Positions 413-63,868 of a stretch of DNA of 64,000 nucleotides are shown here, one piece after another. The notes under the pieces are model-generated. The model was not told the DNA's origin, did not search any database, and saw only the letters and a list, made by a program, of their open reading frames with translations. How positions within the stretch are numbered: the first letter of the stretch is position 1; every line of letters begins with the position of its first letter. The DNA comes from Liopterus haemorrhoidalis. Lineage: Eukaryota > Arthropoda > Insecta > Coleoptera > Dytiscidae. The translations under genes were made by a program, and so were the position numbers. Where the stretch lies: NCBI GenBank assembly GCA_963971575.1, contig OZ020616.1, positions 40,700,250 to 40,764,249 of the forward strand. Reading direction: 5' to 3'.

Positions 413-418
413 TATTAT

Positions 419-1893
419 AAGTTCAATTACTTCGCTGAACAACAGTAAAAGTAGAGATGCGTATGACTTAAATGCCGTATTAATTAAAAGAGTAAGAGAT
501 CTTTTGATTGACCCACTCTGCAAAGTTTTTAATTCGTCTTTAGTAACGCATACATTTCCGACAGCGCTGAAATTAACAAAAGTTATACCAGTTTATAAAG
601 GCAAAAATAAAGACGACTTAAACAACTATAGGCCAATATCCCTAACCCCAATTTTCTCAAAAATTTTCGAAAAAATTCTTCTTCGCCAGTTAATGGAACA
701 TTTTGAAAGCAATCACTTGTTGAATAGCAGTCAATTTGGCTTTAGACCTGGAAAATCTACTACTCATGCTATTTTAGAACTGGTTGAGTATATCACATCA
801 GCTATAGAAAATAGATCTCATGATATAGCAACGTTTTTAGATCTGTCTAAAGCTTTTGACTGCGTATCACATGATATATTGATTTCTAAATTATCCTGTT
901 ACAATGTTAGCCCTGACAGCTGTAAATTATTAAAAAGCTATTTGTCAAATAGAAAGAAATTTGTATGGATCAATGGAAGAAGATCAGATGATCTGGTGAT
1001 TGAGTCTGGTGTGCCGTAAGGCTCCATTTTGGGTCCGCTACTTTTCATAATCTTCATAAATGATCTACCATTATATATGAATACTGCAAAAACTATCTTG
1101 TATGCAGACGACACGACACTTTTAAACCATTGCCCAGATTATGAAGAGTTAGTGGAACAGAATCAGTGGAATATTGAGCGTAGTGTAATATGGTTTTCAG
1201 TCAACAAACTCTGCACTAATCAAGCAAAGACCCAACACCTTTCTTTTTCAAGACGAGCCCTGGACTGTGTTACCAGTGACTCAGTATGTTTTCTGGGTGT
1301 CACTCTAGGTATGAACCTTAGCTGGGAGAAACACGTTGATGTGATATCCATAAAAATATGTAAAGCAATATATTGTATCACAGAATTTAAGATGGAAAGT
1401 AAGTAAAGATGTTCTATTGACGGCATAATACGCGCTTTTTCAATCTCACGTTGCTTATGCGCTACTAGCGTGGGGACATTCCACGCATGCAGTGAGAATT
1501 TTTGCACTGCAACGACGTGTTATTAGAATTATCGGCGGAATAGGCTACAGAGAGAGTTGTAAACACTTGTTTATAGAACTTGGCGTTTTAACGTTCCCTT
1601 GCCTGTACATATACTATTGCCTATTGAATGTCCATTTTAACTTTAAAAACAAAAAGCTACAAAAAAATATTCATAGCTATAATACCAGAGGCAAAGAATT
1701 GATCAGGCCTGATTACACAAGACTATCGTCAACCAGATACTCGTTAAATTACTATGCCACCAAATTTTATAATGTGCTACCGAGTAAGGTCAAATGCCTT
1801 GATAAAAGTCATTTTAAAACAAAAATTAAAAAATTTTTACTCAAAAAGGCCTTCTATAAGGTGAACGATTTTAACTTGTTCTCTGACACCTGA
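419..1893 (+). pseudogene. LINE reverse transcriptase, broken
   Basis: The frame is open from about 419, upstream of any ATG, and reads into a non-LTR reverse transcriptase. Visible blocks are NYRPISLTPIFSKIFEKIL, QFGFRPGKSTTHAI, LDLSKAFDCVSHDIL (motif A), then SGVP-stop-GSILGPLLF and LYADDTTLL (catalytic YADD). The stop at 1017-1019 is TAA where the family has CAA (VPQGS), a C-to-T change. A second lesion near 1406 shifts the frame. In the new frame a TAA replaces a tyrosine codon before ALFQSHVAYALLAWGHS. The C-terminal thumb and tail then run to the natural stop at 1893. It cannot make an active enzyme. Confidence 0.85.
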
Positions 1894-3905: not shown

Positions 3906-4026
3906 TATTGTATATTGTATGTATAATCTATTGTTGTAGTTATTTTATATTATTGTAAGTTTTCAATTTATACTTACTTATGTTGACATGTGTAAAAATG
4001 TAGACTTAAAATACTAATAAATTATT

Positions 4027-23782: not shown

Positions 23783-25150
23783 CTTAGACTTGATCCATAA
23801 AAAAATACAGGAAAATTTCAATATGAAAGTCTTAAGAAAGAAACTTGCATATGGAAAAAGACAGGTAATCCAACTGAGAAATATGCAAGGACACCTACCA
23901 AACGATCGAGCAGAAGTTTTAAAATTTGTGGTGGAGCTCTATGCAAATCTGTACAAATGTCGTTAACCACAATTCTCAACAAGCTCAAAAAAAGTAATAA
24001 ATCAAGGTTCTAAAGCAACCCAGAGATAAAGTTAAGAGAAGTCAAACAAACACTCTCAGGAATGAAATGGAACAAAGCACCAGGAAAAGACGACCTGGCA
24101 ATAGTTGTAATTAAACTAGGCAGTGATAAACTGCTTGAAGCCGTAAAAAACTTGTGCAATACATGTCTTCAAATAGGTACTATATCGAACGAATAGAATA
24201 AGGTGTTAGTAATTCTACTACATAAAAAAGGAGGCGCTTCCCAACTACGTAAGAGCAGGCCTATCAGCTTACTGAGCCAATTGTATAATCTATTAACAAA
24301 AGTCTTTACAAACAGGCTTACAACGAAATTCGATTTCAACCAACCTATGGAACAGGCTGGTTTCAGGGCAAGATTCGTTACAAACGGCCATCTACAAACT
24401 GTCAAAACCCTGATTGAAAACTGTATTGATTATAATAGACCACTGGTACTGATATTCGTCAATGTCGAAAAGCTTTTGGTACTCTTGAACTAGGGTCAAT
24501 ACTTTTATTGTATATAAATTTAGGGTATCTAAATGTAGTCCCAAATACCGCACAGTATTATCTTTTGTTATAATCCTAAAGTTTTATTATTGATGATAAT
24601 ATTATTTGGATTTCGGATTCTCTTTAGGGCAAATATTTTACCTCCGCACTTGTCCGTATTTAAAGTTATATTCCTGTTTGAGCCAACGACAAACAATACC
24701 AGCATTGGTCTGCAGCTCATGTATTGCTTGTTGTAGTTTAAAGTTTTGCGTGATAATTGCGGTATCATCCGCGTACATGGCAATTTCTGCTTGAGTTGTT
24801 GGGATATCGCTGACATAGATGTTGAATAAAACTGGGCCTAACATACTTCCTTGTGGGACTCCTGCTTTAATAAGCTTTAATTCCGAGATTTCGCTGTTAA
24901 ATGGTCAATACTAACAGTATTAAATGATTGCTGAATAGATTATCGCTACAAGCAGATAATACAATCAACACTAAAGTTCAAATCAAATTCAAATCAACTG
25001 CTAGTTTTGTGCTTCATGGGAGAATATAAGTAATCGAAATTGAACGAGGAGTAAGACAGGGAGATTTCCCCGAAACTGTTTACTGCAGTTTTAGAGTAGC
25101 TCTTCAAAATTCTATCCAGGGAAAACATGGGCATTCAAACATATGGTGTG
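23783..25150 (+). pseudogene. RTE-like LINE reverse transcriptase remnant
   Basis: Pieces in order: YGKRQVIQLRNMQGHLPNDR, LSGMKWNKAPGKDDLAIVVI, VILLHKKGG, then SRPISLLSQLYNLLTKVFTN, QAGFRARFVTNGHLQTVKTL, and the motif A remnant FVNVEKLFG. After a Jockey insert (24504-24902) the frame rejoins as LELGSILTVLNDC and continues to IEIERGVRQGD. The YADD/FADD box is not preserved. Stops and frameshifts are frequent, so this is an old copy. Confidence 0.8.
24504..24902 (-). mobile_element. Internal Jockey LINE fragment with 10-bp target duplication
   Basis: On the minus strand it reads AGVPQGSMLGPVLFNIYVSD, AEIAMYADDTAIITQNF (YADD) and, after a frame change, NTVRYLGLHLDTL. This is the same family as the element at 62114-63868. 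GGTCAATACT lies at 24494-24503 and 24903-24912. Both ends lie inside the coding region, so the copy lacks the 5' part, the C-terminus, the 3' UTR and a poly(A) tail. Confidence 0.85.
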
Positions 25151-48499: not shown

Positions 48500-49381
48500 C
48501 TAGAGGTTGTTTTGCCGCTGTGATCAAATAATTGCACGGTCAAAACCGCTCATTCGCTCTAGGCATAAAAATTAGTACAAAAGGGTCATTGTCCAGAACA
48601 TCTGTTTATACAAACAGAAAAAAGATAGTGTTGTGATTCTTAGGTTATTTTTGTGCTATGGAGCTATCATAAATAAGGCGTTGGTCTCATACAAATAAGG
48701 TTTACTAAATTTTTACTGTAACTGTCTTTTAATGGCATAGTTATGAGGGTTTCGCGTACTACATTTTAACACCTCAGCATTCAGAATCTATAAAAAAATA
48801 TGTTTTATATATTTGACGTCAATCAAAAATGTTAAACTTTGATCAAATGCTCTGTATCTTCGATACGTGGTACTTAAATCCCAATTTGTTTTGTCTGTTT
48901 TCATTTCTTGTTCTGTTGTTTTTCCTGTAATTTTTATATTGTACGAAAATGTAAACTCACCATAATTACTAATCGTTTTGAAAATAAATGGAATTGGATC
49001 ACTTACCTGAAAAAAAGAGAAAGATAATTAATTAAAAACATTGACATTTTATCAATACTAAACAAATTATAAAGTAAGAAGTTTGTTTGAGAACAGAATT
49101 CTCCTGAGTTTAAATGTCTGTATGATTGATTTTACGAAGATATAAATTTGCACCAATGCCTTCTAAATAATATTCAAGGTTCTATGTCTTTGATATTGTT
49201 TAGAACAGTAATTATTATTATTTTACTGGGAACTCGGGTAATATCCCAGAAAACACAGTTATAACGGCTGAAACAAAGTAACGGCTCTGCTTCAGTTGTT
49301 GCAGGTCATTCCGAATTGTCGTATTGCAGAAGATGTGCATCATGCCTCGTACATATTGATGCAACAAAACGGCGAACGGAT
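48500..49381. other. Intergenic, nothing recognised
   Basis: No supported frames. The last bases are the target of the Harbinger copy. Confidence 0.45.
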
Positions 49382-49526
49382 TGCCGGGTTTACATTATAA
49401 TAATAATAATAATAATAATAGCCTTTATTACATTACCTATTTACAATATATTTTTAGTAAGGTTATAACAAATATAATTAGTACAATTTTATTTTAATTT
49501 AATTTTATATTTATTTATTTCTTTTC

Positions 49527-52500
49527 TCAGGTAAGTTGAGCCCATTTTTGAGCATAGGCCTCCCCTGCTTTTTTCCATTCTAGTTTATTCGTAGCATTCT
49601 TTTGCCAGAATATTCCTGCTTCCGCTACTACACTATCCACCCATCTTTTTCTAGGTCTTCCTTTCTTTCTTTTTCCATCAGATGGAAACCAATTTGTGGT
49701 TTTTAGTGTCCACCTATCATCTCTCATTCTTGCCACATGACCTGCCCACTTCCATTTTTGCATATTTGCGGCTATAAGCACGTCTTTAGCTTTTGTTTTT
49801 TGCCTTATTATGTCGTGCCGTATTTTATCTTTTAGTTTCACACCCACTATACTTCTTTCCATCGCCCTTTGACAAACTTTTATTTTGTTGGCTTGTCTTT
49901 TTGTCAGCGACCACGTTTGGCTACCGTAGGTTAGGATAGGCATAATACAAGTATTCAGTACTTTGGTTTTTAAATTTACTGATATATTACCTTTCATAAT
50001 CTTTTTCAGGGACCAAAAACCTTTCCAGGCTTTTGAAATCCGGGTATTAACTTCCTTTGTTTGGCTGTCACTGAATGATATTAATTGGCCCAAGTATGAA
50101 TATTCTGTCACTATTTCAAGAATGTTGTCGTCAATATTTATCACAGGTGTTGTGTGCAGATTAGATAGTATTTTAGTTTTTTCCATGTTGATTTGTAGGC
50201 CTGCTTCGGCGCTTGCTGTACATAGTTGGGAGAGCATTTCTTGGAGATTTTGTTCTGTTTCTGCAAATAGCGCTATATCGTCAGCAAATCGTAAATTTGT
50301 CAGAATGGACTTGTTAATTTTTATGCCGTATTTTTTAATGTCTATATGTCGAAATACTGATTCCAAAGCGCAGTTAAACAGTTTTGGTGAAAGCGGGTCG
50401 CCCTGTTTTACACCTCTCTGTACCATAAATGGCTCCCCCAACTTTTCTAATGATATTTTTGCAGTGTTTTCATGGTATATATTCTTAATTAATCTTATAT
50501 ATTTCTGTTCAACATCTTGATCAGCTAGCGATTTCCAAATATAGTGGTGTTCGAGTGAATCGAATGCTTTGCTGTAGTCGACGAAGGCTATCAGAAGAGG
50601 TTTGTTGAATTCGGTGTATTTTTCAATGATTTGCTTCATCGTGTGTAGGTGGTCGGTGGTAGAAAATCCGCTTCTAAAACCTGCTTGATCGTGTGGTTGT
50701 TGTTCATCCAAAACATGTGTCATTCTATTAAGAAGTATTTTGCTAAAAAGTTTATATATGTTTGAGGTTAAGCTAATGGGTCTGTAGTTTTTTATGTCTG
50801 CCTGGTCGCCTTTCTTATGCAGCAATATAATTTTAGACTCCTTCCATTGTCGTGGGATATATTCTTCTTCTAATATTTTATTAAAAATGCTTCTTAAGAC
50901 AGGTGTTATATTTTCTTTGCCTAATATTATTAGCTCATTTGGGATGTGATCAAGACCTGGACTTTTTTCATTCTTGAGTGACTTTATTGCTTCTTTTATT
51001 TCACAGTCCATTATGGGTGGTATGTTGTCCTCGTTATGCAAATCAACTTGAGTAGTATCGCTGTTTAGTTCATCATTTGTAAGTGCACTTTTGTATAGTT
51101 TGGTATAGAACTCAGTTGCAGTTTTCATTATACTAGAGCGGTTATATTCTTTTTGACCATTGTTGTTTTTTAGTGTTGTTATCCAGGTTTTTTCTTGATT
51201 CATTGCTTTATTAATTCTTTTTATTGATCCTCTATTTTGTAATTCTTCATTTATTATATTTTCTTCGTGGTTTATTAAATTGTTTCTTATTTCTTTTCTT
51301 ACTAATTTTTGTATTTCCGCAAGTTCCGCTCTATCATTCGTAGTCTTTTTTCTTTTGTTCTTAATTTTTTCCCTTTTTTGTATTAATTGCAATGTATTTT
51401 GCGTTAATTTATTTTTATTTATTTTTTCTACTTTATTTTCTTTAATTTTCTTGCTAATATTGTTTAGAGTTTTTTGAAGTTGCAATTCCAGAGTATTGTA
51501 GAGATTTTGTATGTCATTGCCATCGACGATTGGTGGAATTATGATGTTCAGGTTATTCTTCAGTTCAGCGTTGACAAGGGGCTTGGTATTTGATGGAAAG
51601 TTGGTTGGGATGTTTGTACCATAATTAATTCTAGATTTTTTCTTATTTTCAGTACTAATGGTTGCTCTGACTAGTCTGTGGTTAGTATAAAAATAAAATT
51701 GATTTAGAACCTCTATATTTAATAATTTTCTTATGTCGTTCATTAATATGTAATCAATTTCATTTTTTACTGTCCCATTAGGCGAGAGCCATGTCCACTT
51801 TTTTGACATTCTTTTTTTGAAAAGAGTATTAGTTAATATTAATCTATTTTCTACTGCAAAGTGAATTAGTTGCTCACCTCTATCATTACGCTGTCCGTGT
51901 CCAAACTGTCCCATTGTTGTCCCTTCGAATTCTCTTTTTTCTCCTATTTTACAGTTAAAGTCCCCGAGTATAATTCGGTATTTTGTGTTACATAGATTAA
52001 TAGCTATCCTAAGTTCTTCGTAGAAGTGACTGAGTGTGCTCTCATCATGCTTGGAAGTGGGGGCATAGGCTTGTACAATGGAATACGTTTCCTCCTTATT
52101 GAACTCAAGCTTCAGAACTGCAACTCGGTCCGAGATACCTATTATATCTGTTATATTATTTTTATACTTCTTGTTTATTAAAAATCCTACTCCGTATAAT
52201 CCTTTTATTATTCCTTTGTAATATAAAATATATTTTTTGCGTTCAATAATTTTTTCTCCTTGTCTTCGAACTTCAGCTAGTCCTAGTATATCGCATTTGA
52301 TGTGCTGTAATGCATTTTCTAGCTCTAACAATTTTTCTTCATTGGAAAGTGTGGTTACGTTTAGAGTTGCTATATATAATTTATTTGTAGTTTTCCTTGT
52401 TCTGGTTGAGTCTATGATTTTTCTGGCTGGTATTGATGCTGATGCTGTAGCTTGGGGGTTTTGGTCATTATTGTCCACGGTGACCAACCGGCTTGGACAA

Positions 52501-52616
52501 TTGTTTAAGTTTTTTTGAATATTTTTTTTATTTTGGTTTATGGTTTGTGATTTATTATCTCTCGTTACCTGATTCGTTGCGTTGTTTGTCTTCGTTGTTT
52601 CCTCTTTTTTCGACAC
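49527..52616 (-). CDS. LINE ORF2: endonuclease and reverse transcriptase
   Basis: It would nick target DNA and copy the element RNA at the nick. The APE-type endonuclease spans residues about 75-320: LYIATLNVTTL, ILGLAEVRRQGE (metal-binding Glu), RIILGDFNCKIG, NEIDYILMN and a final TNHRLV. Usual relatives have SDH there, so the Asp next to the catalytic His is Asn. The reverse transcriptase spans about 540-840: NYRPISLTSNIYKLFSKIL, FVDYSKAFDSLEH, RGVKQGDPLSPKLFN, and LRFADDIALF with FADD near 776-779. The C-terminus has WKWAGHVARM and KGRPRKRWVDS. The first codon of the frame as drawn is GTG, and the first ATG lies inside the endonuclease (TTMGQFG). The frame is the same as ORF1, nine bases downstream, so readthrough is the likely route of expression. 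Confidence 0.93.
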   Translation of the reverse strand: MSKKEETTKTNNATNQVTRDNKSQTINQNKKNIQKNLNNCPSRLVTVDNNDQNPQATASASIPARKIIDSTRTRKTTNKLYIATLNVTTLSNEEKLLELENALQHIKCDILGLAEVRRQGEKIIERKKYILYYKGIIKGLYGVGFLINKKYKNNITDIIGISDRVAVLKLEFNKEETYSIVQAYAPTSKHDESTLSHFYEELRIAINLCNTKYRIILGDFNCKIGEKREFEGTTMGQFGHGQRNDRGEQLIHFAVENRLILTNTLFKKRMSKKWTWLSPNGTVKNEIDYILMNDIRKLLNIEVLNQFYFYTNHRLVRATISTENKKKSRINYGTNIPTNFPSNTKPLVNAELKNNLNIIIPPIVDGNDIQNLYNTLELQLQKTLNNISKKIKENKVEKINKNKLTQNTLQLIQKREKIKNKRKKTTNDRAELAEIQKLVRKEIRNNLINHEENIINEELQNRGSIKRINKAMNQEKTWITTLKNNNGQKEYNRSSIMKTATEFYTKLYKSALTNDELNSDTTQVDLHNEDNIPPIMDCEIKEAIKSLKNEKSPGLDHIPNELIILGKENITPVLRSIFNKILEEEYIPRQWKESKIILLHKKGDQADIKNYRPISLTSNIYKLFSKILLNRMTHVLDEQQPHDQAGFRSGFSTTDHLHTMKQIIEKYTEFNKPLLIAFVDYSKAFDSLEHHYIWKSLADQDVEQKYIRLIKNIYHENTAKISLEKLGEPFMVQRGVKQGDPLSPKLFNCALESVFRHIDIKKYGIKINKSILTNLRFADDIALFAETEQNLQEMLSQLCTASAEAGLQINMEKTKILSNLHTTPVINIDDNILEIVTEYSYLGQLISFSDSQTKEVNTRISKAWKGFWSLKKIMKGNISVNLKTKVLNTCIMPILTYGSQTWSLTKRQANKIKVCQRAMERSIVGVKLKDKIRHDIIRQKTKAKDVLIAANMQKWKWAGHVARMRDDRWTLKTTNWFPSDGKRKKGRPRKRWVDSVVAEAGIFWQKNATNKLEWKKAGEAYAQKWAQLT

Positions 52617-52637
52617 CTTTAGTTGCTACTGGTCGCC
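52611..52637 (-). promoter_or_regulatory. Candidate stop-codon readthrough signal between ORF1 and ORF2
   Basis: The minus strand reads GGC-GAC-CAG-TAG-CAA-CTA-AAG. UAG followed by CAA-CUA fits the UAG-CAR-YYA motif that drives 1-5% readthrough in tobamovirus-type RNAs. The frame is open on both sides, and no stop separates it from ORF2. A chance nonsense mutation of CAG in a formerly single ORF is the alternative. Confidence 0.6.
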
Positions 52638-53480
52638 AAAAATTCGTATATCATAGTAAGAACCTCTGCCTGGAATGGAGTTCGTTCTCTTCCTGTTGGA
52701 AGTTTTTGGTTGTTTCATTACTCTTTTGATTTCTTCATTTGTAGGCAATGGTAGCTGTTCTCCTTTCTTCGGACTCTCTTCTTCTGAGAGCATGCGTTTT
52801 TTCTCGTTCTTATTTTGGTTATCTTGTTTTGGATTGACTTCTTCGTCATCTACAATTTCGATTAATTTGTCATATTTAAGAATAATTTTTTTGCCTTTTT
52901 TTCTTTGTTCTTTCATGATAGGTATAAGCATCTTTCTTCTTTCCAAAACTTTTTTGGGGAAGTCATCTGATATAATGATATTGCTTTGTTTTAATTTACG
53001 TGTATTTTTCATAATTTCTTTTTTCTTTTCTAGTGTTGTTAATGCCACTACAATAGGTCTAATATTATTTTCCTTCTTTCTTCCAATTCTGTATATAAAA
53101 TCTATATCTTTGCTGTTTACCTGAGTTTCCATATTGTTCGCTATAATATCTGTAATTAGCGACATTAGCTCGCCCTGGGTTTTTTCATTTTCTTCTACTT
53201 GATAGAATATTATGTTTTTCCTACGTAATTCCTTGTCCTGGTGTTCTTGATTTTTTTCTAATTCTTCTATTTTTTTGTTCTGCTCATGTATTTGAGTTTC
53301 TTGTTCCAGAATCATTTTTTCTTGTTTTGTGATCTTTTGTTTCAGTTCTTTTTGATTTTCCTCAATAGCTTGAAATTTTACTTCAAAAGTTTCTTTAATT
53401 GTGAGAATTTCTTCTTTCATATCTTTTTTTAAATCTAAACGTAGTTCTAATAACAATTTTTTCATCTTTTCTTCGTCCAT
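52626..53480 (-). CDS. LINE ORF1: coiled-coil RNA-binding protein
   Basis: The 284-residue protein begins at ATG 53478-53480, with an in-frame TAA a few codons upstream. Residues about 1-90 are a highly charged coiled coil (KITKQEKMILEQETQIHEQN) for self-association. Residues about 95-205 resemble the L1 ORF1-type RNA-recognition and C-terminal domains: RRKNIIFYQVEENEKTQ, FIYRIGRKKENNIRPIVVAL, IIISDDFPKKVLERRKMLIP and KIILKYDKL. The tail is basic (KKRMLSEEESPKKG). It should coat the element RNA and escort it with ORF2. It ends ...IFGDQ-UAG. Confidence 0.88.
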   Translation of the reverse strand: MDEEKMKKLLLELRLDLKKDMKEEILTIKETFEVKFQAIEENQKELKQKITKQEKMILEQETQIHEQNKKIEELEKNQEHQDKELRRKNIIFYQVEENEKTQGELMSLITDIIANNMETQVNSKDIDFIYRIGRKKENNIRPIVVALTTLEKKKEIMKNTRKLKQSNIIISDDFPKKVLERRKMLIPIMKEQRKKGKKIILKYDKLIEIVDDEEVNPKQDNQNKNEKKRMLSEEESPKKGEQLPLPTNEEIKRVMKQPKTSNRKRTNSIPGRGSYYDIRIFGDQ

Positions 53481-54239
53481 TGTTTATAATTCACTGATCT
53501 ATTACTTACTGTATGTATGCAACTTTTATAGTACTTGTGTAGTGCGGGTGGTAGTATCAAAAAAGATCGGGCGTCACAGATTCAGTTTAGTTCCCCCTTT
53601 ACTCAATTCAAGTTGGAACCCAAATCTGTGCTAGCTAGATCTATTTTCTACTATTCTATAATAGATGTCGCTTTATTGAAAAAAACCCATTCGCTCTTAT
53701 CAGTTTTTAATTATTTTAATTATAACCTAAAAAACTTTTATGATAAATATAGATATTGTAATTATTACTTTAAAAAAGGATACACTTGATATTGAGCAAG
53801 GATAACAGTTTCAGTTGCTCCTTGTATATTATGAATCGTATTCAAAGCACACTTTTTATTTTTTTTAACGCAATTTCTTCAATATTCGACGATTTTTGTC
53901 ACACTCCAAAACCAACAAACACTCACAATCTTTAAACGTATCTATTACATTGGTAGAGTATAAGTGCTAGTAACTAGCACAAGTAACTATAAACTGGTTA
54001 CTATCCCTGTGTAAGCAGTTCACAATGTTACTAGTAGAGTACTAGCTTCTAGTAGTTGCGCTAGGATAGCAGCTAGTTCGTCGACGTATTTATTAACTAC
54101 CATCTTTTCCCCCACTACGCAAAATTAATTCATTTTAAATTGGCGGCAAGCGGTAACTTGTCATAACATTTCACTGATCATTTATTTACTGATAACTGAT
54201 CATTTATTTACATAAATTGCGTAACATTGATTTGTCAAT

Positions 54240-54662: not shown

Positions 54663-54867
54663 AAACTATATTTTGCAAAAAGATAATTGCACAACAAAAT
54701 CACAGTGAAGATGTCAAATGTGTTTTGACACTTACTATCCAGAAAATAAGATAGTATGCCAATTGTGTATGAACACCTACTATCCCGAAAATAAGATAGT
54801 AGAGTAAAGCGCGTAGTACTTGCGCTAGTTACTAGATCTTTTACTCTACCAATTTAAACCCGGCAGA

Positions 54868-58489: not shown

Positions 58490-59181
58490 TATCGAAATAT
58501 CTAAAAGTCGAAGGTCGGACAGTCAGGATCATATACCTGGCGATGAACGTCCTACAGGAGCATGACATTTTTAGCAAATATTGGGGTCAAATTAAGATTT
58601 TAGCGCGCAATAGACCGAAGGAGATTTAGAAATCAATATATAAAATGATAGAAAAATAGGCACTCAAACACCATTTTATCCTTTTTTATGCTAAAATTTA
58701 CATTTATTAATTAATACCTTTGAAATTCAATACTTTGCGTATATTTTTCTATTAATTCTCGTCTCAAAAACAACTTTAAACAATGCGGTGTTCCACATAA
58801 TCCTGCCATCTTATCAATAAATGAAAGCACGTCTTCTCTTTCCACTCTCCACTTTCATGAAATTTAATAATATTATATATTCTGACTGAAACTTGACTGT
58901 TTGGTTATTCATTAAAACATTTGGGTTAGCTGTGAGTCCGGGCCTCGACGCCGACGCTTGCAATCGACCGAGGCCGTCTACATTCGCCACTGAAAGCAAG
59001 ATCCTATTTGATATCGGTTAAACTCATGTATGATAACTGTAGGATTATAGCACATTGTTCATATATTTAAACATTTATTCTGGTGTTAAAATTTTAAACT
59101 GGATTAGTAAGGTTTGCGCATTAATTGTGCGTAGATGTAATATACAGGAGGATAATTTTTATTTTCACATATGTGTATATA
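58490..59181. other. Intergenic, nothing recognised
   Basis: No supported gene. A minus frame at 58814-58999 has no recognisable domain. Confidence 0.45.
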
Positions 59182-60492
59182 CAAGGTGTCTCAAAAGAAA
59201 TTTTATATTTATTTAGCTTACTGCGTGAACGCAACGTATCCGAGGGGCGCGGGGGTTATGTCAATCGGTAGCCTGACTCTTGGGAATTCAGTCACTATGG
59301 AGCGTTTCTCGGGAGCAGACCGCGCGTTATGCGTGCGAGAGTTTTACAAAAACGGTGATTCGGCGACTGTAGCGCGTAGAATATTCTGCAGTATTCGAGG
59401 TTTTCGCCACTTAAATGATGCGCCAAGCATTCCTCTCATTCGACATTGGGTTAAAAAGTTTGAAGAGACTGGTACAACGCTGGATAAATCAAAATCCGGG
59501 CGACCTAGGTCATCAAGAACGGTAGAAAACGTGGAGAATGTTAATCAGTCTGTTCGTGACGACCCGAACCTTTCAATTCGGAAGCGCGCAAGTGCTTTAA
59601 ATGTGCATAGATCATCATTACAGCGCATTATGCACAAAGACCTAAAGCTGCACCCCTACAAAATTCAATTGGTGCAAGAATTAAAGCCCCAAGATGCCAG
59701 TCAGAGGCTTAGTTTCGTAAATCAGGTGATTGAGCGATTTTCAACGTTTACCAACATTTTGTTTTCGGATGAAGCTCATTTTCATCTTAATGGCCACGTA
59801 AATAAGCAGAACTGCCGCTGCTGGAGTGCAACGAATCCGAAACGCAAACATCAGAAACCCCTACATTCGCCTAAAGTGACCGTATGGGCTGCGATGTCGG
59901 CGCGAGGAATTATCGGCCCTTACTTTTTTGAAGACGAAAGGGGGCGTGCAGTTACAGTGAATTCAGAGCGTTATGTGGAGATATTACACAACTTCTTGGT
60001 ACCTGAACTGCAAAACTTTCCTGGCTATAACCAAAGAACATGGTTCCAACAGGACGGAGCAACTTCACACACGTCCAATATGTCTCTGCCACGTGTTCGT
60101 GAAATTTTCTCAGGCAAATTGATCTCCCGGAGAGGTGACATAAATTGGCCTCCACGCAGTCCATATTTAACCCCTATGGACTTTTTCCTATGGAGTTATC
60201 TTAAATCTAAAGTTTACGCCAATAAACCGACTTCACTGGCGCATTTGAAAGAGAATATCCGTCACGAAATGGCAGCCATCCCTGAGTCCACCTGCCGAGA
60301 CGTCATAAGTAATTTTACTGTTTGATTAAATGAGTGCCGAGAAGGCGAGGGTCTACATTTAGACGATATTATTTTTAAGAAATAAATCCCCAAAAAGTGT
60401 ATTTTAATAATTAATAAACATTTTTTCTATATACGGCTTACGTTTTTTTTTTAATCGATCCACTAAATATAAAATTTCTTTTGAGACACCTT
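59182..60492 (+). mobile_element. Near-intact DD41D (rosa-like) mariner-superfamily transposon
   Basis: The 29-bp ends AAGGTGTCTCAAAAGAAATT... (59183-59211) match exactly at 60464-60492. TATA lies on both sides, with one terminal base (C/G) missing at the right. The 1311-bp length and single long frame mark a young or recently active copy. Confidence 0.92.
59297..60325 (+). pseudogene. DD41D transposase, 20 residues short of the family end
   Basis: I take ATG at 59297 (MERFSGADRALCVREFYKNG). The open frame continues upstream into the terminal repeat, which is not expected to be coding. A helix-turn-helix and GRP linker (HWVKKFEETG, SGRPRSSRTVENV) and a second helix-turn-helix (NVHRSSLQRIMH) bind the ends. 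Catalytic residues are LFSDEAHFHLNGHVN (first Asp), TWFQQDGATSHT (second) and SPYLTPMDFFLW (third). There are 41 residues between the last two, the DD41D signature. A TGA at 60323-60325 stands where CGA is expected; past it the frame reads LNECREGEGLHLDDIIFKK to a stop at 60383. This is one C-to-T change away from full length. Confidence 0.9.
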
Positions 60493-62113: not shown

Positions 62114-63868
62114 TTTTTTTTTTAATCTGTTTATTGCTGTTTCAACAAAAGGAATGTTATTCACAGCAGTGGTAACAAGTAAAAGAAACTAACTTAATAA
62201 CATGGGACAAACTTAACTATCCTAATAGTACTTAAAATGTAACTTATAATGTATCACTTCTGTTCTATGTATAGTTTCGGTATCTATGCTAAAATTTAAT
62301 CTTAAATTAAGTCACTGTCACTGTCATTGCTGCTGTTATATATGTCTTGGGGTAGCTGTCTTTTCAGTCTAACGTGTATACCTTTTTGGCCAATGTTGTA
62401 GGTTATCGCAGCTTCACATTTTTTTATATTGTTTATAAAACGTTTGGTAACTTTTCTAATAAATGTTTCAATAGTTGGCATGTTTAATTCCTGGTGAAGT
62501 TGCTTATTCCGGATGAACCATTGACTGCTATTCTTAGAATTTTGTTTTGCAGCGTTTGTAATTTGAGGATATTGGTTTTGGAGGTGTTTCCCCAGACTTC
62601 GCAAGCGTACATAAACAGAGGTCGAATTAGCGATTTGTAGAGTAGCAAGGCACATTTAACTTTGAGATTTGATTTTCTGTTTATCAAGGGGAAGAGCTGG
62701 TATAGTCTTTGATGAGCTAGCTGAAGTTTAATTTTAATATGAGATGTCCATGTAAGCCGTCCGTCGAGGTGCACTCCGAGATATCTTACTGTTGTTGAGT
62801 TCCAACATATTGGTTGTTCGTTTATTCGAATCTGTTGTGGATGTGAGATTCTCTTAAGTGAAAATATTTTGCATTCGCATTTGTCAGTGTTAAGCAAAAT
62901 ATTCCACATTTTGAGCCATTGGCAGATGGTTGTCACTGCTTTTTGTAATTAGTTAATAGCTATGTCAAGGCATTCGTCCTGTGTTATAATCGCTGTGTCA
63001 TCGGCAAACATAGCAATCACTCCCAAATTAGATGGAATGTCCATGGCAAAAATGTTGAATAGTGTCGGGCCTAAAATGCTTCCTTGTGGAACCCCTGCCC
63101 TTATCTGTTTTAGTGGTGAATGTGTGTCGTTAATTTTAACTGAGAACGTTCTGTCCTCTAGAAAAGAAAAGGGTATTCCATTGAGGTAGTTTGGTAGATT
63201 TAGTTTTAATAGTTTGTATTTCAATCCATCAATCCAAACTTTATCAAATGCCTGTGCAATATCAAGAAATGCGACAGTAGTATGAAATTTGTCTTCAAAG
63301 CCTTTTTCTATTAATTCGGTTAGCCTTAATAGTTGCTGAGTTGTGTTGTGCCTTTTTCTGAAACCAAACTGGAAAGTTGGTATTGCGTTTATGGATTCTA
63401 GTTCTCTTTCCAATCGGACATGTATAACCTTCTCCAAAAGTTTAGAGAAAGTATTTAATAGACTGATCGGGCGGTAACTGCTGAGAAAATGTTTGTTTTT
63501 GCCAGGTTTATTAAATAACAAAATTGTTACTGTTTTCCATTGTTTTGGAAAGTAGTTTAACATTAAGCAGGCATTAACTGAGCATTAACATTAAGAGGCA
63601 TTAAACAACGATGCAACATAGGCTAGGAGTTTAGGGGTGAGATTTTTTAGAACGATGTTGGGTATTAGGTCTGGCCCTGGTGACTCTTTGACAGGTTTAC
63701 TGATTAAGGATTTCAGTGCTGAGGGAGTTGTTGGCTCTATATTTCCGCAATAAGGGAAGTGGGTCTCGATATAATTATTAATGAAATTCTTGTGTGCTGC
63801 AGTTGAGGAATTAGTTGGAGAAAATACTTTTTCTAAGTATTCTGAAAATTGATAAGTTTTATCTAAAT
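62114..63868 (-). mobile_element. 5'-truncated Jockey LINE with 10-bp target duplication
   Basis: CGGTATTCTT is present at 62104-62113 and 63869-63878. A poly-T run at 62114-62123 is the poly(A) tail on the minus strand, as in Jockey. The endonuclease and ORF1 are missing. The 1755-bp copy carries the reverse transcriptase to the natural ORF2 end. Confidence 0.92.
62302..63868 (-). pseudogene. Jockey reverse transcriptase, few lesions
   Basis: In order: KHFLSSYRPISLLNTFSKLL, QFGFRKRHNTTQQLLRLTEL, TTVAFLDIAQAFDKVWIDGL (motif A Asp), RAGVPQGSILGPTLFNIFAM, MFADDTAIITQ (FADD), KCECKIFSLKRISH, STTVRYLGVHLDGRLTWTSH and the C-terminal VTKRFINNIKKCEAAI. Upstream, ESPGPDLIPNIVLKNLTPKL is the block before motif 1. 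Lesions are a short local duplication near 63560-63600, one TAA at about 62948 and a frameshift near 62530. The catalytic residues remain. Confidence 0.88.

Follow-up and report, generated by a model that had tools for sequence, protein, structure and literature searches.

A single in-frame UAG separates the two open reading frames of a LINE in Liopterus haemorrhoidalis and is a candidate site of translational readthrough

The window analyzed here, a 64,000-nt stretch of the Liopterus haemorrhoidalis genome, carries on its minus strand a two-ORF element, the extent of which was defined as the similarity (99.8%) that it has in common with the copies at C3 (L099) and C12 (L098). Six copies were seen to terminate in one and the same (TAT)n tail with different flanks, and no clear target-site duplication was found in the ranges compared around the element. 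The downstream frame, ORF2, matches Exo_endo_phos (PF03372, 6e-07) and RVT_1 (PF00078, 3.5e-37) in Pfam; its PDB matches include the reverse transcriptases of L1 and R2. With an endonuclease and a reverse transcriptase in one ORF, the element is an APE-type non-LTR retrotransposon (LINE); its motifs suggest that it is RTE-like. The first-pass annotation had placed ORF1 and ORF2 in one frame, divided by a single TAG and otherwise open over more than 1300 codons, and this was confirmed on the minus strand: 1318 codons run from the ORF1 start to the terminal TGA, with TAG and TGA the only stops.

Table 1. Positions of the LINE and of its coding and RNA features in the window.
Feature	Position	Strand	Remarks
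Whole non-LTR element	49397..53937	-	~4.54 kb, (TAT)n tail
ORF1	52626..53480	-	284 aa, ATG 53480-53478, stop TAG 52628-52626
ORF2 frame	49527..52625	-	1032 codons, stop TGA 49529-49527; Pfam PF03372 and PF00078
Junction CAG-TAG-CAA-CTA-AAG	52617..52631	-	fits UAG-CAR-YYA
Linker from TAG to endonuclease	52380..52625	-	82 codons, open, no in-frame AUG
First in-frame AUG after TAG	51912..51914	-	mid-endonuclease
Conserved RNA hairpin (putative)	52470..52501	-	8-bp stem, 3-nt bulge, 4-bp stem, loop UGGUC
GACCA, could pair with loop (H-type pseudoknot)	52462..52466	-	pairing possible, no covariation

ORF1 had no match in Pfam or the PDB, the only row being a sub-threshold one to SlyX (E 0.74). A single-sequence AlphaFold2 model (mean pLDDT 60) places a coiled-coil-like helix over residues 3-116, with pLDDT block means of at least 90 only across residues 1-80 and low values elsewhere; the model is thus confident about the N-terminal helix only, at about residues 1-80. 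Several other elements were seen in the window. Immediately beyond the LINE on its 5′ side are inverted 41-bp arms (53945-53985 and 54817-54857, 88% alike), which may belong to a MITE-like element adjoining the insertion. Fragments of reverse transcriptase from different LINE families, with 27-33% identity to ORF2, are located at 414-1046 (+), 23858-24472 (+) and 62577-63743 (-), and a 384-codon ORF at 59171-60325 (+) presumably encodes a Tc1/mariner-type transposase.

The junction lies in the context GGC GAC CAG TAG CAA CTA AAG GTG TCG, in agreement with the tobamovirus-type context, CAG-UAG-CAA-CUA, read by the first-pass annotation, which had found the right place (52600-52640) but had given plus-strand coordinates for a minus-strand feature. 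CARYYA directly follows 8 of the 1316 codons of the ORF1-ORF2 frame, the TAG being among those eight, which puts its chance occurrence at about 0.5% per codon. No in-frame ATG occurs between codon 254 (52718) and codon 522 (51914), so that the first in-frame AUG past the stop, at +714 nt, falls within the endonuclease, as had been claimed; the GTG at 52616, also proposed as the apparent start of ORF2, is a start only by the convention of the ORF lister. AUGs in the other frames of the 760 nt after the TAG open ORFs of at most 20 aa, and no stop close to or overlapping an ORF2 AUG, the SART1-type arrangement, was found at the junction. Methionine is absent from the 237 codons after the TAG versus 16 in the next 795 (p ~0.01, calculated by hand), and the 82-codon linker stayed open in 333 of 20,000 dinucleotide shuffles.

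A search of the same genome (1.02 Gb, 91 contigs) with 303 bases around the junction gave at least 16 matches, and after exclusion of L110 (also L095), which carries no junction, the junction codon could be read at 14 loci. It is UAG at 11 of them, UAA at L111, CAG at L105 and UUG at L106, and CARYYA follows it at all 14. The first-pass annotation had named a sense codon in most copies or in the consensus, or an AUG for ORF2, as a finding that would speak against readthrough. Sense codons are confined to two loci, both of which are damaged and have lost ORF2. ORF2 sequence is retained at four of the junction loci (the window, L098, L099 and L100); all four have UAG, and in none of them is there an in-frame AUG from the TAG to the endonuclease. 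The window copy and L099, seven substitutions apart with no indel, are open throughout apart from the UAG; L098 has lost 4 bp within ORF2, and L100 is a partial copy with indels and a linker stop after 62 codons. In the other three of these copies the linker is open. Being 99.8% identical, the open copies are few independent witnesses. Eight further loci (L101-L108) keep ORF1 and have lost nearly all of ORF2, their similarity jumping from base 1312 (1301 in L108) to bases 3962-3973 of the 4204-base query; they are internally deleted, non-autonomous derivatives. UAG is found in six of these eight, and the 284-codon ORF1 is open in three. Two more diverged loci extend the comparison: L109 (~74% identity), also deleted, reads CAA-UAG-CAA-CCA, and L111 (~70% identity), old and rearranged, has UAA followed by CAACCA. 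At the nine ORF2-deleted loci among the 14 (L101-L109), UAG need only end ORF1.

The UAG-CAA-CUA block had been expected to be more conserved than its neighbors, and this expectation was not borne out. Over 12 copies, with L109 and L111 excluded, only 2 of the 108 cells of TAGCAACTA hold a minority base, but among 124 windows of nine bases 95 were conserved at least as well. The TAG itself is altered in two of the 12; the hexamer is invariant in all of them, but the 30 bases preceding the stop are likewise unchanged at 29 positions. L109 retains eight of the nine bases of the block, and its CARYYA offers weak support, because the chance of keeping it at such divergence is about 0.3 (calculated by hand).

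A protein search of the genome identified relatives at 38-45% amino-acid identity, here called the sister family, and further families at ~30% identity. Most of L115-L141 are 5′-truncated loci with ORF2 only and carry no junction, and L122, which has no sister junction, was likewise excluded. The four sister junctions (L134, L126, L142 and L143) all have UAG, which is shifted about a dozen codons downstream relative to the window. All four copies are decayed, L134 and L126 having further stops; since the linkers of L142 and L143 have frame-breaking gaps, the frame was judged in L134 and L126 only, in both of which the ORF1 and ORF2 matches share one frame across the junction and the linker is open. 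The sister UAG is followed by GAU in two copies, by GAA via a one-base gap in one and by UAU in one, so that CARYYA, present at 14 of 14 loci in the window's family, is found at none of the four. The hexamer therefore cannot be the shared cause; what the two families have in common is the UAG and a downstream hairpin. An AUG shortly before the endonuclease is present in L134 and L126 and is AAG in the other two copies.

When the window was compared with L134 in 60-base bins, similarity was highest (0.71, against 0.70 for the second-best bin) at 120-180 nt past the TAG, where a putative hairpin with the pattern CCAANCCGGNTGGTCNCCGTGG is found. It begins 124 nt past the UAG in the window, 94 nt past it in L126 and L134, and 93 and 87 nt past it in the gapped copies L142 and L143, respectively. 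The same 12 pairs can form in L134 and L126, folding of L134 gives the same shape, and the exact 12-pair geometry occurs twice in the 64-kb window (both strands), once at the hairpin. Between the families, three outer-stem pairs and one inner pair have changed on both sides with pairing kept. In a set of eight distinct sequences, pairing is kept in 94.6% of cells versus 87.0% in shuffles, for a structure that was derived from the very sequences tested and a set that includes the decayed L109 and L111 (the alignment places the gap of L109 in the pseudoknot strand); slid pairing partners gave 35-52%. Double-change cells numbered 11 versus 4.8 in shuffles, a value that none of 500 shuffles reached, while the four pairs with double changes and the eight further pair types did not exceed the shuffled background (counts as high arose in 272 and 342 of 500 shuffles, respectively). 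Because nearly all of the compensatory changes fall between the two families, they represent few independent events. All 12 pairs are present in seven of L101-L108 and 11 pairs in L106. The pairing of the loop with GACCA is possible in the window and in all four sister copies, without covariation, and covariation therefore says nothing for the pseudoknot.

Folding of the 139 nt after the TAG gave no structure (z +1.9) because that stretch ends inside the hairpin. For the hairpin region itself, 11 of 200 and 12 of 200 shuffles folded as well or better in two window stretches, and 52 of 200 did so in L134; since folding energy alone is weak, the case for the hairpin rests on compensatory change. 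A search of window positions 49300-54000 against Rfam 15 gave no match at E up to 1. Coding constraint in the linker was seen neither by codon-position mismatches, which between the families number 13, 11 and 11 over the three positions, nor by frame comparison of the linker protein with L126 (frame 0, z 6.7; frame 1, z 9.5). Because the mismatches are even over codon positions, the conserved part of the linker looks RNA-constrained rather than protein-constrained. The hairpin, with its candidate pseudoknot, is kept in both families with compensatory changes; it is a new observation, which the first-pass annotation had not made.

The best explanation for the production of ORF2 in this two-ORF, presumably RTE-like LINE is readthrough of the ORF1 UAG, which we consider probable, and the UAG is not a private mutation of the window copy. 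Reinitiation at an AUG is unlikely because ORF2 has no in-frame AUG, leaving readthrough or non-AUG internal initiation. Two features favor readthrough: in both families the two ORFs lie in the same frame, interrupted where they meet by a single UAG, and no stop interrupts the linker on the 5′ side of the hairpin. In the window the stop is also in a known leaky context. Ribosomes would initiate at the ORF1 AUG, and most would halt at the UAG to release free ORF1 protein; a minority would decode it and continue through the 82-codon linker into the endonuclease and reverse transcriptase, giving an ORF1-ORF2 fusion of 1317 residues at low ratio. CARYYA would promote readthrough in the window's family, and the hairpin or pseudoknot, 124 nt downstream in the window and 87-94 nt in the sister family, is proposed as a shared stimulator; it may matter more than the hexamer. 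We infer the occurrence of readthrough, its ratio and the role of the hairpin, all three, from sequence. The distance of the hairpin from the stop (87-124 nt) argues against readthrough, as does the fact that TAGCAACTA is no better conserved than its neighbors. The readthrough fusion first suggested by the annotation is partly supported, by the stop codons of the copies, the missing ORF2 AUG and the UAG at all four sister junctions; the conservation test does not discriminate, and the hexamer is kept throughout the window's family but not in the sister family.

The main alternative is that the hairpin or pseudoknot recruits ribosomes and ORF2 starts just after it at a non-AUG codon (in some sister copies an AUG), with the UAG merely ending ORF1. 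The position of the hairpin shortly before the endonuclease, the AUG shortly after it in two of the four sister copies and the RNA-constrained appearance of the linker all suit such internal initiation. That AUG is AAG in the other two sister copies, however, and internal initiation does not need the linker to be open 5′ of the hairpin, as it is in the window, L098, L099 and the two judged sister copies; known IRESs, moreover, are larger than a hairpin of this size. Internal initiation is accordingly regarded as unlikely. Less likely still, the hairpin might serve packaging or recognition and have no part in translation, with readthrough directed by CARYYA alone. In favor of this, the non-autonomous L101-L108 retain the hairpin, and in tobacco mosaic virus ~25 nt around the stop are enough, with CARYYA essential (PMC2754532); the sister family, though, has the hairpin without CARYYA. 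If the element once encoded a polyprotein in a single ORF, a nonsense mutation carried along by a young subfamily mobilized in trans would account for the CAG at one junction (L105) and for the near identity of the copies that are open throughout, but it is very unlikely given the UAG in L109 at ~74% identity, the UAA stop in L111, UAG in four of four sister copies and sense codons in damaged copies only, no intact sense-codon copy being found at the 14 loci with a readable junction. Other LINEs, such as SART1 and L1, are described as reinitiating at an AUG after termination, which in SART1 needs a downstream structure (PMC5972666), but with no in-frame AUG until +714 and only ORFs of up to 20 aa in the other frames termination-reinitiation is very unlikely here.

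LINEs are known to reach ORF2 by routes that include reinitiation, frameshift and separate starts. The proposed readthrough resembles the tobamovirus type (type I) in its UAG followed by CAACUA and its in-frame extension containing the polymerase; it differs in that its host unit is a non-LTR retrotransposon and in the extra, distant hairpin. Readthrough of a UAG with the help of a pseudoknot is described for murine leukaemia virus gag-pol (PMC5009743). As in that virus, a first protein is followed in the same frame by the polymerase, with a UAG and a downstream pseudoknot candidate. The viral pseudoknot adjoins the stop, whereas here the structure is 87-124 nt away and the element is not an LTR element. 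SART1, a silkworm LINE, couples its ORFs by termination-reinitiation with a downstream RNA structure, its stop-start overlap being UAAUG according to the title of a reference in PMC5972666; the present LINE shares the coupling of ORF1 and ORF2 and the downstream structure but has no AUG at its stop. VdLTRE5 and Tca2 also have an in-frame stop between two ORFs, but they are LTR/Copia elements, said to use stop suppression and reported to lack CARYYA, and a reporter built with the junction of Tca2 showed no readthrough (PMC3441728, PMC7175516). ORF2 of Zorro3 is reported to require its own AUG (PMC1965478).

Searches of viral contigs, genome contigs, plasmids and phages found distant elements only, L002 and L068 being among the loci compared, and 55 pattern-derived stretches from viral contigs gave no tblastn match. 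The other plasmid and phage rows listed, for plasmids 20 of 77 records, are, where annotated, mostly reverse transcriptases of the group II intron type. L068 (NZ_JASJAV010000043.1), filed as a Breoghania MAG, holds two eukaryote-type LINE-like elements, which are probably contamination. The L068 element compared, which we take to be an RTE-type LINE, encodes an endonuclease/reverse transcriptase protein 37% identical to that of the window over a 959-column match; unlike in the window, an AUG precedes the endonuclease in its frame, and because that frame closes ~165 bases upstream of the match, there is no in-frame ORF1. L002 (NZ_CP104070.1), which is filed as an Alicyclobacillus 'plasmid' and has catA1 and an IncFIA type, carries a eukaryote-type LINE with in-frame stops, perhaps a cloned insert or a misassembly. 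No LINE with UAG-CARYYA readthrough was found in the literature searched, which took in only a minority of subscription papers and not the key older ones; novelty is thus unproven.

How ORF2 is translated in LINEs is a long-standing open question. We put forward, tentatively and as something short of an even prospect, that this LINE lineage ancestrally makes a Gag-Pol-like fusion by UAG readthrough stimulated by a conserved distal hairpin or pseudoknot, and that the tobamovirus-type hexamer was a later addition in one branch. If a LINE does use UAG readthrough, non-LTR elements would have converged on the retroviral Gag-Pol solution, and the element would offer a compact junction in which stop, hexamer and hairpin are each open to mutation.
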